From Ascidia mentula (Eukaryota > Chordata > Ascidiacea > Phlebobranchia > Ascidiidae): DNA of 64,000 nucleotides. Numbering within the stretch: position 1 is the stretch's first letter; every line of letters begins with the position of its first letter. Below the pieces are notes generated by a model. That model made no database searches. It saw only the letters and a list, made by a program, of their open reading frames with translations, and was not told the DNA's origin. The translations under genes were made by a program, and so were the position numbers. Below, piece by piece: positions 47,363 through 64,000 of the stretch. The DNA lies in NCBI GenBank assembly GCA_947561715.1, contig OX387197.1:10475001-10539000 (forward strand). The letters run 5' to 3'.

Positions 47363-50105
47363 CTATTTGGACGACTTTAAACGTCGCCAGATGATGAAAG
47401 TCAAAACAAAAATAAATATAACAGCATAAAATCGCCGCCACAAAATCGCATGAAAATAATATTCCAGAAAAAAAGCGCACCATTGGTATACAGCATGGGG
47501 AATTTCAAAAGGTTTAGGTGTCGTCATACAAACCGCGTCCTCTCTTTCATACCAGACTTCGCGCAAGGATTCAACGCGGTGTGATGGCCTGATTCCTTTT
47601 GTTAATTTGATATGTTCGTCTGCGTGTAGCATTAAACATAGCTGACAATACCCGGTTAGCTGCTGTGGTTTTGCCTTGGCGGGCACTTTTTGCCAGTCAA
47701 AAAACTTCGAGTACTCTTTGGGCGAAGTATCTAGGCTCTGGAGCTTTTCTACCAAGTCTTTCGGGTGCAAAAAATCCTCAACGAAAAGAAATGAATTTTT
47801 GGGTAGGACTGCTTCCACGTCACTCCGCTTCGGTCCCCATATTACCGGCACCGCTCCAGAGTGCAGAGCATTCCACCACGTCTTTTCAGTGATGTAATCT
47901 CGACAGTGCAGGGCGTTCTCAAACGAGAGGTAAAACTTGTATTGAGACAAATGTTCCGCCAAATCCAACCAATCACCTGGGATTGTGTGCAGAACACAAG
48001 TTCCGGAAATATCGATGTCCAATCCGAGTTGCAGAAGTTTCTTTACCATTTCCAGTCGTTGGCGCGCACCTTACGTAAAAAAGTGTTTTTGTAAGGTTAT
48101 TTAAATAATCTGATCCAATAAGCAAGACGACACATTTGACGGATGACAACTGTGCTTAGAAAGGGTGGCAAGGCGTGCATTCAAAAAGTTCACTGCGAAG
48201 ACAAAGAAAGGGTCACATCCCTGAACAATGTTTACGAAAATTGCGATGGCCATTTTATAGGGCTATCTATAACGCCTTTTTTATGGACCGTCGAGGGGTA
48301 AAACCCACCTTTTGTGAAAAGACAATCTCCCACCACCCAGGCAACAAGTTTCGTTTTCGAAACCGGAGAATTTCCCTCAGACTTCGGTTTTGTCTTTTCG
48401 ATGTCGGCAATATACGAGTAAGGAAAGTAAATGTCAGCATCTCGCCTGTCCAAAAAAACTGGTTTAGGTTTAAAACAAAACAAACTCAAAATTGCATCGA
48501 CATATTTTTACCTGTAGGTCATAGTCAAATTAAATTGATCATCGTAACCTTCGAAGTCACGTTTATAGTTGTTTAAGGTGGTCCACGGTGTCTCGATGCT
48601 CATCCAGATTAGCAGTTGATCTTCAAAGCTGTTATTTTTCAAAGAAACGATTGTTTACGTGAGGAATTTATCCTTTTTGGCTTTTGTATTTACATGCACT
48701 TGTTCGTTTTTTGAGTTGCAAACTTGTCCTCGACATTTATTATAAACCTGTCCAAATGGATATTAGATAGAAATGCACCTTTTATGATTAACAATGTGTT
48801 ATACTTCTATGTACAAAAAAGCCTTAATAATCATTGAGCGCTGCAGTCAGGTGTGTACACTGTTTTGACTTATATGGTCTCATCATACTTCTATATATAA
48901 TCTAAATATTTTGAACGGTTTACCTCCTGTACACGCGGTTCCTGTCGATAATGTTGAAATCATATATCACTGCATCGGCAGTATCGCGTAGACTGATATT
49001 GTATGACACCTCGCACCGGCCACATATCTTCTCGTTTACTTCAGCAAGACGGTGCATCTGGTAAGGATTTTCCTGCCACACAATCAGCTTTCTGGTTTGT
49101 TCGTGGTGGAGCTGTAACGTTTGAAAATTTCATTTAATCCAGTGTTCCCCAAAGTTGGGTCATCTAAAAGTTTATTTGGGTCGCTTGTTGCCGAGAGCGG
49201 CAAAAAATACTAATTATTATTTGTTAATATCGGTGTTTTGTAGTTCTCTGCATGACTTTTATGCTTGCGTCGCGAGAATTTTTTAATAGAATTTAAAAAT
49301 ATGGAGTTTTCTTTTTAAAGGTTAGGAACAGTTGATTTATTCAACTTTTGAGGCTATAACACAGTTGTTTGTAAAGAATGTTGAGCAGAAAACAGACCTG
49401 GCCCTTGATATAATACACATAATATCAAATAAACACAGTTCCTATATATTCCAAGTTAATTTAGATACGTGGCTGATTTACAATCAGTGGTTTTCAACCG
49501 GGAGACCGTGAAAACTTGCTGATTTGTAGAATTTCGATATATTCACGCAATTACCACAATATAGACCAGAACATATGTTAATAACAGAAGCACTTTTTAC
49601 AACCTTGTTACATTACAAACAAAAACATATTGTAACTTGGGGTGCCGGACTTCAGTCTTAGCGGAAACAACGTGCCTTTTTTCTACCCCGAATTTGCGCC
49701 TGTTTTTTGTGTCACTTTGTGTCATTTACACTTGATGAAGCGAGGGTTACCCGCGAAAGCTCGTGTACGTTATAATGTAAAAGTCGGTTTACCCAACGAG
49801 TACCAAGGCAGGACAACTGAATAAATAAACTTGCATGTACTTACCTTGATTGAGTGACTTGATTCCTTTAATTTTTTTGCAACGGCATTTTCGAAATTAC
49901 CAGAGTTGACGCTTTTTTGGGTATCAGGGTAAGCCCACCACATATTGCTTCCCGCATCGTTCAGTTTGTGTAGGTCGTAACGCAAATACTGCGCTAGGGC
50001 AAACACCAGAAGGCTCGCCACAACCGACAAAAAATGTCTTCCACAAACCCGATGAATTGCACTGGTCGGTTTAAAACAGCAACTATGGTGAATGTTGCGG
50101 ACCAT
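47363..50105 (-). CDS. GT10 alpha-fucosyltransferase-like protein B
   Basis: Tandem paralogue of gene A. Exons 50105-49845, 49111-48924, 48628-48512, 48445-48309 and 48069-47363 join in phase to 469 aa; exon order, phases and the 188/117/137-nt inner exons equal those of A. Signal-anchor near residues 25-40 (FLSVVASLLVFALAQYL), then ADAVIYDF, DQLLIWMSIETPW, NLTMTYRRDADIYFPY, KLVAWVVGDC and an intact donor motif FENALHCRDYITEK. It also ends in a second hydrophobic segment (FYAVIFIFVLTFIIW) plus RRLKSSK. A 165-bp stretch of the last exon is almost identical to gene A while its surroundings are diverged, which suggests gene conversion. Presumed Golgi fucosyltransferase; exact linkage unknown. 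Confidence 0.92.
48840..48888. repeat. Dispersed repeat fragment in gene B intron
   Basis: GCTGCAGTCAG, ACTGTTTTGACTTA, then GGTCTCATCA. Short copy of the family at 2480 and 41233. Confidence 0.5.
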
Positions 50106-52036: not shown

Positions 52037-55000
52037 ATGGAAATGGCATTGGTGCCTATGATTGTTTTAATAGTTTTATTTGTAACGCCAACAATTAAAG
52101 CCAGCTGTCAACTGAAAGGTAAAACTATATGCAGTACTTAGGTATTAAAGCTTTACTTTAAAAGTGGTGTTTGTGAATGCATTTAGGAGGTGATGAATTC
52201 GAACAACCTGTACAGTTCTTCAAATCCCACGGGCAGTTGCAGGTGCGTGAAAACCGATTTAACGTAGGAGGAATGGACATCACCCGGGTTGTCATAGGGA
52301 ACAGCGATAAGGCGGATGGAAACACAGCACTGGCGGGACCCACTGTCAGAGTGCCAGCAAATGCCAAAAACACACGACTTATTCTGGTATGTGTGCAAAT
52401 TTCTAGCAAGCATTCTTTGTATTTTTCTGATTTCCAACACGTATGACCACCAATTGCAGCACATACAAACCACGGATAGATCATGGTGCCGCCATTTCTG
52501 TCAATCGAACATATGCGAAGATGTACCTGCAAATTTTTCCTGCATGCGTCTCCAGCTCTTTCCTGGACCAAGGATCAGCTCTTTTGTCCAGCATGTATGT
52601 GTTTTCAACTAATCCATTGCGACTTGTTCGGCTCCATGTTATCAAAAAGTTTGAGGTTGCTACAACAGCAAACTCAACACAACGATTTTTATGCAGGAAA
52701 ACTACAGTTCATGTTATTATATTAACTTGTGGTGTTGCGTGGTTTTACAGAACCAGCAGGATTTTAGTATTGCTGAAGTAACTTGGTATTCCGCTAATGA
52801 GTGGCAAAATCATATTGCCGGAACGTTCATGTACCGAAGCATGGCGCAGGGTTTCGCGACAAAGCAAGTATGCCTATTTCATATTTTACAGTAGATTTTG
52901 TTTTTTATTTCTATGGAAAATAGTTCTTATCGACGGCCGAACTTAATGTAGGCAGATAGTGGAATGAACGGAATGATAATAATTGAGGACACTGGGAGAA
53001 CGTCATCAAATGCCAACAATCATGTGACGATACCAGACGAGCTGTACAACGTTTCATGCCCTGATAATTGCGGCCATGATGTCCAGTTCCTCTTTCAATC
53101 CACTTTGCAGTATTCTGCCAACGCAACATCACGCGAAATGCCCGATCTACAGTGAGTAACTTGTGTTAGTTGAAAACGAGCAAGGAAAAGGCTGTACACA
53201 CACTGTACCAACCAAATGCAACAAATCAATGGAAACGGCTTGTGCATAGCAAAAGCAACAAAACCAACGCTTGTTTGTGTTATATTTGGTTCAATGGGGG
53301 AGTTCTTGTTACAGAAATTCGATCAACGTTTCCTGTTTGCGTGATCCAGAAAACGGAATCAATTACTTCACAACCAACGGCCTTCTCCACCCAAAGCTGG
53401 AACTCGCCACCGGTCAGATCAAGCGTTTCAGGTAGGAAAGTCAAATGTAGGCAAGGTTGGCGCGTTCCGGTGAGTCACCAAATAAACCTTGGTACCTGTT
53501 TTTGTTTTAAGGTTCGCCAACGGAGGCTCAAACAATACGCTGCAGATAACTATTGAAAACAATGGATGTGAAATAGGGGAAGTCGCCATCGACGGAATAT
53601 ACTTGTCGTCAACTCGCAGTTTGAGGAGCAAACGAACTGTACTTTTTCCGAGTTCAACAGCTGATTGGATCGTAGTTTGCAATACACCGGGCATATATCA
53701 GGTCCAATTTTGTTATACCGTATTTTACGGACCATAAGGCGCAACTTAAATCCTTTTTTTCCTCATAAATTGATCGTGCGCCTTATAAGCCGGTGCGCCT
53801 TATGTATGGATCAAGTAGTGCTTTATTGCCTACACTCAAAACCAGTACCGATACTATTATAAATAAACCACCGTCTTACACAATAAACTACGGTAAAAGC
53901 AACTAGCAACTGTGATATACATACTATTGTGACTTGCTTACATTTGTTACGTAACAAGTTTTTGTTTAATGAGCTTTATACGGTAACCCATACTCCTTAA
54001 AATACGTTGCGTTCTATAGCCCGGTGCGCCTTATGTATGAACAAAAAACTAATCAAAGCAATTTATTGACAGTGCGCCTTATAATCGGGTGCGCTTTATG
54101 GTCCGTAAAATACGGTAATATGAAAAAACGTGATTTCTATGCCACCACGTTTTGAACAGGTTAAATTCTACACGAGGATTAACATCTTCTTATAAAAGGA
54201 ATTTTATGAGTTATTTAACAGGTCTATTTTACTACATTTTCACACCCAATGTCTCACTTCACCTTGCAATAATCAAAGCACATGAAAACACAATATCAAT
54301 TTTAAGGTTTTCGAGCAACTTAAACCTGCATCGCCGCTGTATTTTCATGTGCAGACAAAGAGTATTGTTTTTGAATTCTTTCGTACACAGAACAAACAGA
54401 ACTTATATTAACTTTGCCAGCTGGTGTCCAGAGCAGGCAAAAACGACGATCTGCAAACGTTTGATGGATTGCTCGCTACACTGCGCGTGGTCGGCAACGA
54501 AACAGTCACCAATCTACCACCACTGAACGATTTAAACCTAGTAGATCGGTTAGATAACATTGTGGAGGAATCCCCCAGCTTCGTTGTAGAAACCGGCGTG
54601 AGTGGTCGATTAAATAGGAAAGAGTTCGTCGAAGGACAAGCAGTAAGGTAACGTGAGCTTCAAACATATTTAATTTCATTAGTATGTTATTCGCATTGTT
54701 TAAAGCCTGTGTTTGTCAGACAACATTTTATCCGGAATTTTTGAGTTGGTGTAGTTTTGTTTGGGCGAACACACGCAAAGGTATCAAATTATTGTAGGTT
54801 TACTTGTTTTTGCGCAGTCACATCACAGCAGTCGGAAATATCTCTTGGCTCTTCTATAATACCAACCCAGCGGAAACTTCCATTTTATTTCTGAAAAGGT
54901 TTCCCGTAAAAGTAAGTCGTTATTTCAAGACAGAAAACACGGTTCAATGTTTACTGATGCAGATTACTTTGTGTAACAATTATTCCGGACCGATATCTGT

Positions 55001-56847
55001 ACAAAAAGGATCGAAATGGCAACTGTGCTACAACACATCAGAACACGTAGCCTTACAGCCTTGTTGCAACACTTCAACCGGTTCGCAAAACTTTCGACCA
55101 GGGTGTTTTTATGGCCTGTAAATTTACTATTAATTTTTATGTGATATCAAGAACTGTGCAATGACGTCATTTCATTCAGCGGAGGTTCAACAAAAGCTGG
55201 TGAACAGTTTTTAAATGACGTCAGGTCGGTTGTGGCAATTCCTCCTCTTGGAAATATAACAGTAAGCGTGGAATTTTGGCAAATTTGTTTAGTGCAAAAA
55301 ATTTTAAATTGTATTCATAGTTTTGTGTGGATGTCTAAACCCAATTATTACTGTATGAAAATATTGGACATATTTTAAAAATTATACCAATATTTTGACG
55401 CAAAAACTGCCACGAATTTGGGTACCCAATCAAACGATACATGTTACTGGCCACCATCAGTTATCTAATGTATACAGTATACTGTGAGAACGATTAGAAA
55501 TAAAGTGTACTCTTTGACAAATATAATGTGCACTGTGACCGCCTATATCAATAACTAACTCACAATATCTTATGACATTGTTTTCTAGATTACCTTTAGC
55601 GCTACATATGACGCCACTCAAGTAGAGGTAGGCAGTGTAATACTGCCGGTATGGGATCAAGGCGTTCGTTTAAAGTATTCTGTTCAGTCAAACCCACAAC
55701 ATACTTTGGAGCAAAAAACATGCGAACTGTCATGTTGTTCACCTTGCCAATTGCCTTTTATTTCGCCAATCTTGCTTCCCTGTATACCCTCGACCAAAAC
55801 AGCAACAACAACTACCACAACCACAACAACAACAACTACCACAACCACAACAACAACAACACCTACCACAACAACAACAACACCTACCACAACCACAACA
55901 ACACCCACCACCACAACAGCAGCAGCAACAACAACTACCACTATAATTGATTTGGCCGTGGGGTAAGTTCTACAACAATTGACGCTGAACTCTTTTATCC
56001 CTCGTTTGTTTTGTGTCATTTTTTTGATTGTGTGCCCGACAGAACTTCGCGATTCCCGCAATGTCGCTCATATACAACCCACAACTTTCTCTGAGGTTAA
56101 CTTTCCTATTTTGTGACTATAAAAGGCACGAAGGCTTGATAGCATTTTCTGGCGACTTTTGTTGGCAAAATATTGAACAGTGATAAGTCTGGCATTACAT
56201 TAACTACCCCTGTTGTAATTTATCACAATTACATTCACGTTTCACTAATTTGGCTACGCAATAATGTTGAGAACAACAAGACTATGTCCCATAATGCAGA
56301 ACATGCGTTATATTTAATTTAAGAAGTTTCGGCAGTAACTTGTGGCAGAGCAACGAATTAATAATTGCCAATTTTATTAGTGCAAAACGTTCACGTTGTT
56401 ATGTCACTGAAACTAAGTTGACACCCGTGTTGTCTGAAATTTTGAGGACAAAGTCTGACTTACCTTTACACATTAACATTTTCACGGAACCATGTTAATT
56501 TTGTTTCCAGAATTGTCACAAATATTTGTAGGAAAATATTTTTATTTGGTCTACTTGTGCACAAATGAGGAACTAGTTTGTAAAATATTTTTGCTCTTGC
56601 TTCGTCTAGAATTCCGGGGGGTATACTTGGTGCTGCTGTTCTTGCTGTGATCGGAATATTGATTTGGTACAAAAAGAATCACACTAGCTCAACAAATTCC
56701 AACAACGAGTTGCTGAGAACAAATCACGAAGGGCCAAGTGGGGAAACCCCTGTGAGCAGAAGGTCTGTTGAAACCCGAGAAATGTATCCCATCCATCCCC
56801 AACCACCCAGACGTCTTGAACCGATTCATAAACCCGAAAATTCGTGA
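52037..56847 (+). CDS. Copper-site-less multicopper-oxidase-like type I membrane protein
   Basis: Thirteen exons in phase: 52037-52118, 52187-52386, 52460-52594, 52751-52867, 52952-53151, 53315-53431, 53512-53701, 54421-54647, 54818-54911, 54963-55102, 55180-55261, 55589-55962 and 56610-56847; 731 aa. Signal peptide (MEMALVPMIVLIVLFVTP); three cupredoxin-like domains about 30-205, 210-370 and 370-570; Thr-rich mucin-like stalk about 600-647; membrane segment about 654-674 (GILGAAVLAVIGILIWY); cytoplasmic tail of about 55 residues. The fold call rests on NGLLHPKLELATGQIKRFRF and AIDGIYLSS (domain 2) and IAGTFMYRSMAQ followed by GMNGMIIIEDTG (domain 1). Where oxidases have H-S-H this protein has R-S-M (168-170). 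Where they have H-C-H it has G-S-V (543-545), judged by alignment with the gene at 63226. It should not bind catalytic copper, so it is more likely a receptor, adhesion or scaffold protein. The weak GTCCAA donor after exon 7 is the least certain junction. Confidence 0.75.
53718..54115. mobile_element. MITE with TA target site in oxidase-like gene intron 7
   Basis: A 398-bp element with ends CCGTATTTTACGGACCATAA and its reverse complement, flanked by TA on both sides (53716-53717 and 54116-54117). GTGCGCCTTAT motifs repeat inside in both orientations. No coding frame. The TA flanks fit a Tc1/mariner-like or another TA-targeting family. Confidence 0.75.
55797..55943 (+). repeat. ACA/ACC-rich low-complexity tract coding the Thr stalk
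   Basis: About 49 codons nearly all ACA, ACC or ACT with a few CCT/CCC and GCA, inside exon 12 of the oxidase-like gene. It encodes a Thr stretch likely to carry O-glycans. Length is probably polymorphic. Confidence 0.9.
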
Positions 56848-57769: not shown

Positions 57770-59722
57770 ATGAGGTGCACTTCACTTTGTCTCTTGCTGA
57801 GCGTTTTTATCCTATCAAATTACGGGTTCTACTTCATCACACTGTCGCCGCTGGTACGCAACAGGATGGGTGGCGAGGTACCGTGGTGGATGTGGAACAC
57901 CTACAACGACTGGGTATCAAAGATTGTTCCTGGTGGAGGTCATGATGGTATTCCGAGTGACAGTGGGGAAAACCTAAACGGAGATGAATTAAGAAGTTTA
58001 CTAAAAGGTGAAAGTAGGAATGTCCCAACAAAAGTAAGTTTCGGGCATACGTGACTGTAAAGTCATATATCGTTTATGTATACAACTAAGTTTATTGATT
58101 TAGTTTATTGCTTCCACTGAAGGCTCACGATTTAATAAAAAAGGCAGGGAAAACGAAAGTTTTGTCATCATTGCTAAATACAGCTATGTTCGCGAAATAA
58201 CTAAATAAATTTCAAATAAACTAAATAACTGATAACTGAAATAAGTGACAAAACCCCTCGACATTACAAGATCGGACAACGCTTTGGGCTTAAATGACGG
58301 TACATGGATTTATGTTACGTTTAAATTGTTTTAGCCGAGAGTTTTTCGCAAGCATGTCATCTTCTTAGCGTTTGATGGAGGCAAAACTACGAGTGATGCC
58401 TTCAGCCACACGCGCACATGTCCTGTAACCTGCCAAGTTACGTCCGAAAGACTGTTTATGCAATCTGCCACAGCTGTTGTTCACCGGATTACTGTCAAGC
58501 AACGGCTAAAAAGAAGGTACTTTTTGGCAATTATTTATGCTTAAAACAATTAACATTTGGTCGCACTTGATCCACATTCAGTCATCCAGATCAACTTTTT
58601 GTTTGGATGAGTGACGTCAGTCCGTCGGAAACCTTAAGTCATGCGGAACAAATTCGTAAAAATTACAACGACTATTTCAACCTCACTATGTCGTATCGGT
58701 AGTAAAAAGTGTTGAATTTGTTCTTCAAAATATGTGCTGATATTTTATGTTTTTAAGCAGAAAAGATTCAGATATTACTCTTTCTCCGTTTGTCCCGACA
58801 CCTACGTGGTCACAAGAGAAAGAACGAAGTGCCACAGATAAAATATATGCTCAAAAATACAGACTGGCAACGTGGTTTGTTGATCTGTGGCAAGTTTCCA
58901 AAGGTATCACTGTACAGAAAAAAGACGTGAAAATTTCCCCACGCACGAATATTTTTTGTAGCGAAAGGAATCCACATTCAAATGGCCTTGAGTCTCATTG
59001 AAATCGGTTTACAACTTGACATCATGGAAACAGAGGTCTGCTCACACACTATTCAAAGCCACCTAGCTGGTTACAAGTTCTACCTGGCATTTGAAAATAC
59101 CTTGCATTGCCAAGATCACCCCTTCAGCCTTTCGGTGTGGCAGGCCTTGCAGGCTGGAGTAGTGCCGATTATATGGGGTCCTAAACAAGAGGATGTCGAA
59201 GCTCTTCTGCCAAAGAACTCCTACATCTTTGTGGAAGACTTCGGCACCTCGGAACAACTTGCAAATTACTTGGATTACCTTGACCACGATTATATTGCTT
59301 ACATGGGATTTTTCGCCTGGCGTACGAATAACGATTATCTGCAGAAAATACCAAGCGCGGTAGAAACTGGTTTATGTCAACTATGCAAGCGGCTTCATGA
59401 CGATGATCGGTTTGAAGATGCTTACGGTTTCCGCCCTGAGCATAAAGTTTCCTCTGTATTTACGTGGTGGTATCTCGGAGAGTCTCGCATTTGTCTTTCC
59501 CCTCAAGTGTGGATGGAATACTGTGGAAACCTGTGGCTTAACATTTTACTTTACGCAGAAGTTCGTTTCCGAGCCTTCACCCACTTTCGACTGTATGTGT
59601 GGTGTTGTTTAACTTATGTAATAGCGACATGCTTGATTGCCTTGACTGGCACAAGGCGTCGACGCACGCGTTGGATCTTGCGAAACTCTATTAGGTTTAA
59701 AGCAAGTCAGTGGTTGCCATAA
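57770..59722 (+). CDS. GT10 fucosyltransferase-like protein C, donor motif lost
   Basis: Exons 57770-58033, 58335-58516, 58582-58698, 58758-58903 and 58962-59722 join in phase to 489 aa. Start is the ATG at 57770, which opens the signal-anchor (LCLLLSVFILSNYGFYFITL). Exon 3 has the same 117-nt length and phase as in A and B, and it aligns with them over its length: TCPVTCQV, DQLFVWMSD, NLTMSYRRKDSDI, KFYLAFENTLHCQD, VVPIIWGPKQEDVEALLPKN. Key differences: after FENTLHCQD it has HPFSLS where A and B have YITEK, so the conserved Glu and Lys of the donor motif are missing; and TWFVDLW replaces AWV(A/V)G(N/D)C. It also has a C-terminal hydrophobic segment (YVWCCLTYVIATCLIAL) followed by TRRRRTR. 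The frame is clean, so the gene is kept but probably lacks standard fucosyltransferase activity. Confidence 0.85.
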
Positions 59723-63225: not shown

Positions 63226-64000
63226 TTAGGAATTTTTATAAAACGTTCCAAGCAACAGACAGGCGACCAGCAGAAATGAACTGAAAAGGCAAAACAAAAG
63301 TTACTCATTTTTTTGAAATATTAAGTTACAAATAAAATGTTTATCACCTATATTTAATCTTCTGGTTGCCATTTTCACACTTACGCTCGTCCACTGGATT
63401 ATTTTCCATGCAGGAACATTGATAGGCACCACCTGATGTGCTGCTGGCTTCCAAACTCTCCCCTATGCGGACAAGAGTTTCATGCAAAGCTTGTACACAA
63501 GTATTTATTTCGTCACAAACACATGTACCTTCGCCTACGATTTCTGCCAACAAAGTCATGCCTTGTTCTGCATCTGCCAGCAAGTGGCAATGAACCAACA
63601 CAATGCCAGTATATGTGTCGGTTCGGAAGCGAATCTGGAAACAGTGTTAAGGTAAACTGCTGATAACAAAACTTTTAAGTTAACCAGTTGGATAAATAAA
63701 TTTCCCCCGAATGGTATTTTAGGGCAGAGCTTCCCAAACAGGGCTTGGTTGATGGGATTCCTAAATACCCAAACAATCTCACTGTAATATTGGAGAGGGG
63801 TGGAACCAGGATCGTGTCCATCCAATCTCCAATCTGTGCGTATCCAATCGTTCCCGAACCTCCCGTTGCCTGGTATTGATCATGCCCTAAATGCTCTAGG
63901 GCATCTGCCGGGGGCTGGATATCAATCGTTGCTGCAAAGCGTATTGCTATGTTTTATAATCAAACTTACTGGGTAGAACCACGCTTGGCCCAAAAATTTT
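63226..64000 (-). CDS. Multicopper oxidase, 3' part, with C-terminal membrane anchor
   Basis: Exons 64000-63970 (continues upstream), 63931-63783, 63634-63348 and 63280-63226. The reading is the last cupredoxin domain of a multicopper oxidase: IGDWMDTILVPPLSNIT, IRFRTDTYTG, then the copper motif VLVHCHLLADAEQGM. The two type 3 His and the type 1 Cys (HCH) and the axial Met are present, but the position that normally holds the second type 1 His (H-C-H-x3-H) is Asp. After the fold come a Cys-rich spacer (CVCDEINTC, CSCMENNP) and a hydrophobic end (SSFLLVACLLLGTFYKNS) suited to a GPI signal or tail anchor. The intron after PPLSNIT matches in position and phase that after PPLGNIT in the gene at 52037, so the two share ancestry. 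Substrate unknown. Confidence 0.82.

Follow-up and report, generated by a model that had tools for sequence, protein, structure and literature searches.

The window analysed here is a stretch of 64,000 nucleotides from the ascidian Ascidia mentula (contig OX387197.1, positions 10,475,001 to 10,539,000 of the forward strand). At 52037-56847, on the plus strand, it contains a gene related to the multicopper oxidases (MCOs) whose product lacks nearly all of the copper ligands. We term these the MCO-like gene and MCO-like protein. The gene consists of 13 exons, every border being GT-AG, which join into a single open frame of 736 amino acids with a TGA stop at 56845-56847. The same 13 exons were recovered when a spliced aligner was given the assembled protein, a run that tests the splice borders and is not independent of the gene model, its query being the assembled protein itself. 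The features of the gene are given below; N1 denotes a neighbouring oxidase gene.

52037-52118, 52187-52386, 52460-52594, 52751-52867, 52952-53151, 53315-53431, 53512-53701, 54421-54647, 54818-54911, 54963-55117, 55180-55261, 55589-55962, 56610-56847, plus strand: exons 1-13 (GT-AG borders, open frame, aligner check)
52037..52102, plus strand: N-terminal hydrophobic segment, a putative signal peptide (hydropathy 2.21 over residues 2-20)
52460..52594, plus strand: exon 3, ending QLFPGPRISSFVQH, with four Cys, where the N1 counterpart ends HTHGLHISSQ; first HxH pair lost (alignments)
52835..52843, plus strand: R-S-M at the position of the H-P-H ligand motif of domain 1 (alignment; paralog YHPHLHG is YRSMAQG here)
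54818..54911, plus strand: exon 9, ETSILFLKRF where paralogs have HPIHIHxNxF; the T1, T2 and T3 His are S, F and K (alignment)
55631..55639, plus strand: G-S-V at the position of the H-C-H motif of domain 3 (alignment; paralog VHCHLL is VGSVIL here)
55721..55783, plus strand: Cys linker CELSCCSPCQLPFISPILLPC, similar to the CxxC(x1-4)PF...C of six paralogs (sequence comparison)
55790..55942, plus strand: Thr-rich stalk, residues 601-651, Thr in 42 of 51 (composition); overlaps a 24-bp tandem repeat at 55799-55941
56611..56676, plus strand: predicted membrane span with basic stop-transfer residues, IPGGILGAAVLAVIGILIWYKK (hydropathy 2.32)
56677..56847, plus strand: predicted cytoplasmic tail of 56 amino acids, and stop (hydropathy; genome search without a relative)

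Intron 7 contains, at 53716-54117, an element resembling a miniature inverted-repeat transposable element (MITE), with 28-bp terminal inverted repeats that are 96% complementary. A 111-bp probe from it scored 40 places at 98-100% identity, its own copy counted.

Pfam hardly detects the kinship of the MCO-like protein to MCOs: PF00394 scores 17.8 bits (E 0.0038), short of the cut-off of 21, and the best hit of a PDB sequence search had an E value of just 0.18. The homology is settled by matches to the genome's own oxidases. We modelled 21 paralogs, N1 and 20 more, of which 4 are partial; two of the models (C70_13639, with one stop, and C70_13685) were excluded from alignment, profile and tree, leaving 19. 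A hidden Markov model of these 19 matched the MCO-like protein at 232 bits (E 6.4e-73, single target), and hhalign against six paralogs gave a probability of 100% (E 1.3e-52) over 503 columns, spanning residues 23-562; identity between the ectodomain and the paralogs is 28-32%. The six-paralog profile in turn matches the PDB structures of Thermus laccase, CueO and CotA, and two paralogs scanned carry PF07732 and PF07731. The MCO-like gene and N1 each have 11 core introns, of which 7 are equal in column and phase, 3 are equal in phase and shifted by 2-24 columns, and 1 is different. Among the seven is a phase-0 intron after PPL(G/S)NIT, which occupies the same alignment column (610/0) in both genes; from that motif through G-S-V the two align without gaps, as the first-pass annotation of this stretch had observed. 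At the level of sequence, then, the gene is an end-to-end homologue of the genome's three-domain MCOs, and the three-domain layout first proposed for it is borne out.

We inspected 12 alignment columns, comprising the 11 copper ligands (ten His and one Cys) and the axial Met. Nine of them have the expected residue in 19 of the 19 aligned paralogs, and the HxHG columns have His in 18 of 18, one row being gapped. At the second T1 His position, 17 paralogs have His and two, N1 and its neighbour N2, have Asp. The corresponding residues of the MCO-like protein are H, C, R, M, S, F, K, G, S, V, V and V. Of the ten His and one Cys of an MCO enzyme, therefore, none or one is left, and the sole candidate, H106, hinges on the MAFFT alignment. 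The earlier claims that R-S-M replaces an H-S-H-type motif in domain 1 and that G-S-V replaces H-C-H in domain 3 both hold, and the mapping against paralogs extends the loss to ligands of the T1, T2 and T3 sites. Two ligand clusters beyond those first noticed are also gone: HPIHIH has become ETSILFLK, and the first HxHG is deleted in hhalign (QLFP--------GPRISSF) or replaced by RHFC in the other alignment.

The MCO-like protein has 20 Cys in total, four of them encoded by exon 3, and new Cys and His might build another site, making the protein a non-classical metal-binding enzyme. The authors describing the insect MCO relative MCORP leave copper sensing or transport open in the portion of that paper available (PMC4203857). 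We regard such a site as improbable here: the ligand positions are C, R, M, S, F, K, G, S, V, V and one alignment-dependent H, the His of the core are halved (11, against a paralog mean of 23.5), and disulphides explain the extra Cys more simply.

The losses are concentrated at the active site. Of the columns invariant among the paralogs, the MCO-like protein keeps 1 of 11 ligand columns, axial Met included, versus 55 of 82 others (Fisher p 3e-4, an optimistic value, since nine of the 19 paralogs are close tandem copies and the columns are less independent than the test assumes). All five of the non-ligand invariant Cys are kept. Since the ligands are gone yet scaffold residues and Cys are retained, we take the product to be a pseudoenzyme rather than that of a decayed gene; judged by its residues, the scaffold is maintained while the active site has been removed.

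With exons 4-7 as query we found 134 matching places in the 196-Mb genome, 4 of them in the MCO-like gene itself, and by our own count about 45 other loci. Many are tandem, with arrays at C70:13.59-13.78 Mb, C69:7.64-7.66 Mb, C71:5.95-5.99 Mb and others. The family appears to be a large set of laccase/CueO/CotA-like oxidases. The idea that all of it is copperless was rejected, as HPH and HxxHxH are each kept in 21 of the 21 models and HCH in 20; the second T1 His is present in 18. At the family loci on C1, C2 and C52 other than the MCO-like gene, W-Y-H-x-H occurs in 9 of 9 and a nearby HCHxLx(H/D) in 8 of 9, among the matches listed. The locus at C52:14.336 Mb has the W-Y-H-x-H match, but its nearest HCHxLx(H/D) match lies about 17 kb downstream. 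Genome-wide these patterns are unspecific (241 versus 91 in the control, and 223 versus 194, among the matches listed), so that they take their meaning from position at family loci. The ligand survey left aside at least six loci (C71 5.963, 5.970 and 5.977 Mb; C70 13.744, 13.776 and 19.246 Mb) and saw the ligands in part at seven C70-array genes and several C69 loci. In the tandem array, two genes appear to be damaged or altered: C70_13639 has one in-frame stop, and C70_13685 lacks the HCH exon where it is expected. Because of the latter, an altered domain 3 may not be peculiar to the MCO-like gene; among the members seen, the MCO-like gene alone also lacks the motifs other than HCH.

About 578 residues precede the stalk, and 11 N-X-S/T sequons lie outside the membrane. 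Hydropathy gives one strong C-terminal hydrophobic segment only, of about 19 residues (about 659-677), followed by WYKK. The stalk overlaps a tandem repeat in the DNA, so its length may differ among individuals. A search of the whole genome with the 56-residue tail found no relative elsewhere (next best E 0.55). The exon chain and the succession of Thr-rich stalk, single span and tail thus agree with the first description of this gene.

The accompanying view that stalk and membrane attachment had been gained is probably wrong. A CxxC-PF-C linker like that of the MCO-like protein occurs in 6 of the 17 paralogs scanned (L023, L024, L025, L042, L041a and L041b), all outside the C70 array; it is followed by a clear Ser/Thr-rich stretch in L023, L024 and L025 and by a short one in L042, L041a and L041b. 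In N1 and L042 the open frame continues across a phase-2 intron into a likely last exon, which encodes a hydrophobic end (SSFLLVACLLLGTFYKNS and SFVLLCLLVIWAIWTS, respectively) directly before the stop, resembling a glycosylphosphatidylinositol (GPI) signal. Similar hydrophobic last-exon candidates were seen for L041a, L041b, L025 and perhaps L023, and GPI anchoring of the paralogs is likely but unproven. The last exon of the MCO-like gene, behind the same phase-2 intron, runs past the hydrophobic part into basic residues and 56 further residues. These data are better read as a linker and probably a C-terminal anchor that were inherited, a cytoplasmic tail that was gained, and copper that was lost; novel relative to the paralogs would be the lost ligands and the tail without a genome relative.

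Intron 12, which precedes the last exon, is 647 bp long, and no homologue of the tail exon was found in the genome. This would fit a mis-joined model, in which exons 1-12 and the membrane-span and tail exon belong to separate transcripts. The join, however, is open, GT-AG and in phase 2, the phase of the likely last intron in N1 and L042, and we judge a mis-join the least probable of the explanations considered.

The explanation that we favor, and consider probable, is a surface pseudoenzyme derived from an MCO with a probable GPI-type anchor, in which the three-domain scaffold was kept, a span and tail were acquired, and partner binding would take place without oxidase chemistry. Its ancestor would have been a duplicated, probably GPI-type membrane-anchored member of a probably tunicate MCO family. 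The T1, T2 and T3 copper sites would have been lost with the three-domain scaffold, presumably of cupredoxin fold, retained, and the C-terminal hydrophobic exon would have been extended into a true membrane span and the cytoplasmic tail. The protein would most likely reside at the cell surface in type I orientation, on a stalk predicted to be heavily O-glycosylated. Its ectodomain might bind a partner, whether extracellular matrix, another cell or an active oxidase paralogue, and the tail might couple binding to the cell interior without oxidase chemistry. From these features we infer that a receptor or adhesion role is plausible.

Several observations weigh against this account. At E<=1, exons 8-12, which encode domain 3, have no match in the genome outside the gene itself. 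The gene is thus a singleton, and its third domain, the most eroded part, has diverged strongly. In a tree of this genome's MCOs and four bacterial MCOs, with no MCORP row, the end branch of the MCO-like protein measures 2.81 changes per column, where the median is 0.14, a length that also fits relaxed constraint, and the tree program flags its placement as unsure. Against an inherited linker and anchor, the linker is absent from N2 and from 10 of the 10 C70-array genes scanned, and the Cys region of N1 misfits the pattern. N1 could alternatively end at an unspliced stop directly after KYR, without a hydrophobic tail. For L042 there is an alternative about 1 kb downstream (about 5463, C52), an open hydrophobic stretch with a basic tail that may be another last exon or another gene. 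For L024 the scan yielded no convincing last exon. It is because of these three cases that the GPI reading of the paralogs is held to be only likely, and the GPI-type ancestor is drawn from few last exons, some with alternatives.

The long end branch and the divergence of domain 3 would also be expected of a degenerating paralogue on its way to becoming a pseudogene, its frame open by chance, and the insertion in intron 7 looks young, with copies 98-99% alike. That insertion is confined to the intron, and neither the frame of 736 codons nor any of the 12 introns is disrupted. When three paralog coding sequences were drifted at random to 56% identity, our guess at half the divergence, they acquired a mean of 13-14 stops and at least 4 in every run (100 runs each); the observed number is 0 in 736 codons. 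Given the intact frame and splice sites and the retention of scaffold residues in preference to ligands, we reject the pseudogene as very improbable.

A part of the neighbouring oxidase N1 lies within the window. The gene is modelled on the minus strand at 69368-63347, in window coordinates.

63226..63931, minus strand: 3' exons of N1 within the window, 63783-63931, 63348-63634 and a likely terminal exon 63226-63280; they encode HCHLLADAEQGM and a hydrophobic end, SSFLLVACLLLGTFYKNS (gene model; remainder of N1 beyond the window, to 69368)

The two neighbouring oxidases N1 and N2 (C1:10.54-10.55 Mb) lie within about 21 kb. Each has Asp at the second T1 His (HCHLLADAEQGM in N1, HCHLLGDADQGM in N2), and a third family locus, C1:9608552, reads HCHLLDD; the three are possibly T1-altered enzymes representing an intermediate state. 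Close kinship of the MCO-like gene to N1 and N2, suggested by location, is unsupported. In the tree the animal rows, among them the MCO-like protein, are split from the four bacterial MCOs (100/100); N1 and N2 form a clade of their own (100/99), and the MCO-like protein falls outside it with 17 others (87/88).

The proximity of N1 and N2, together with the intact-motif paralogs elsewhere in the genome (HCH in 20 of 21 models), leads to the main rival explanation, that of a regulatory pseudo-oxidase. Such a protein would be a putative dimer with, or competitor of, active paralogs and would limit oxidase or ferroxidase activity rather than act as a receptor for an outside ligand. A role of this kind needs neither the tail nor the stalk, and an ectodomain just 28-32% identical to the paralogs does not favor it; we consider it rather unlikely.

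Hephaestin-type ferroxidases are MCOs with one C-terminal span, as in the MCO-like protein, but are catalytic and have six cupredoxin domains. The layout found here is different: the stalk is preceded by about 578 residues, and the match to a three-domain MCO covers residues 23-562. The first-pass annotation knew of no named family to which such a protein would belong. This stands in part: copperless, membrane-attached MCO relatives have been named, MCORP (PMC4203857) and SKU5/SKS (PMC10315306), but our searches of the open-access literature found no MCO relative that combines span, mucin stalk and tail. MCORP is a copperless, membrane-bound MCO relative of insects; the Tribolium protein has no laccase activity when purified and is essential (PMC4203857). 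Like the MCO-like protein it has lost most ligands and the His-Cys-His tripeptide, and Anopheles MCORP behaves as membrane-bound (PMC4203857). It differs in being reported from insects only and in having an N-terminal signal anchor, the available text describing no mucin stalk, C-terminal span or cytoplasmic tail; it also keeps two T2 His (PMC4203857), whereas in the MCO-like protein the second T2 His is Phe and the first is H106 or deleted, depending on the alignment.

The plant proteins SKU5 and SKS1 are copperless, GPI-anchored and proposed to limit a ferroxidase (PMC10315306); SKU5/SKS are similar to ascorbate oxidases (PMC4203857). They too are MCO-like surface proteins, SKU5 lacks T1 and T3 ligands, and attachment through its C-terminal GPI motif is crucial for SKU5 function; the sections available describe neither span nor cytoplasmic tail (PMC10315306), whereas the MCO-like protein has 56 residues after the basic stop-transfer. 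Bacterial SufI/FtsP has a metal-free MCO-like structure and is a proposed scaffold, but it is water-soluble and periplasmic and keeps 2 of 12 canonical copper-binding residues, with no stalk or span described in the accessible text (PMC2661564). Plant early-nodulin-like proteins (ENODLs) are copperless cupredoxins, often GPI-anchored and with a glycosylated region rich in Pro, Ala, Ser and Thr; they have a single phytocyanin domain, and no transmembrane tail is described in the part of the source at hand (PMC8955391).

Ephrins, in the account available, have a cupredoxin fold that lost its copper, act as surface signalling ligands and occur in GPI-linked (A) and transmembrane (B) forms (PMC6485061). 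They are thus a precedent for copper loss combined with a transmembrane helix or GPI anchor, which we count in favor of a surface pseudoenzyme. The likeness is by description only: ephrins have one cupredoxin domain and bind Eph receptors (PMC6485061), whereas the homology of the MCO-like protein spans the length of a three-domain MCO. We suggest tentatively, as a doubtful case, that a second, independent ephrin-like event took place, in which a GPI-anchored copper oxidase became a transmembrane receptor by loss of the metal sites and extension of the GPI-signal exon into a span and signalling tail, with catalytic cousins in the same genome.

Other observations concern the surroundings of the gene and the wider distribution of the family. 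Fucosyltransferase (PF00852) open frames flank the MCO-like gene at 47363-48070 (minus strand) and 58931-59722 (plus strand), and an intronless open frame of 457 amino acids (L009 2147-3520, plus strand) lies on the opposite strand inside the large N1 intron. When bacterial and archaeal genomes were scanned, at least 582 of 592 candidate stretches were confirmed; 46 of 80 loci were tried, of which 43 translated cleanly, 39 were carried forward and 4 entered the tree. The bacteria with related MCOs in the matches listed include Pseudovibrio species (L093, L094), one of which bears the name ascidiaceicola. Tunicates have a tunic chemistry of cellulose and phenolics, and glycosyl hydrolase family 6 is, among animals, known from tunicates; two weak matches to this family in the genome (E 9e-6 and 1e-4) fit a tunicate. 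Searches of the open-access literature, limited to the best-ranked matches, found no paper on ascidian MCO families. An ascidian phenol oxidase, as far as the available text describes it, is haemocyanin-like and belongs to another family (PMC9395347).

If our explanation is true, an enzyme would have been turned into a surface protein by stepwise edits, with the active site removed, the scaffold kept and a short C-terminal anchor extended to a span and tail. The genome would still contain intermediate-like paralogs; the majority of the modelled ones have intact motifs, and two or three have one T1 ligand changed. The proposal that ephrins arose from a copper protein, as outlined in the available account (PMC6485061), would gain in the MCO-like gene a case for comparison that can be tested. 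The analysis also brings to light a large laccase/CueO-like oxidase family, of about 45 loci by our own count, in a tunicate.

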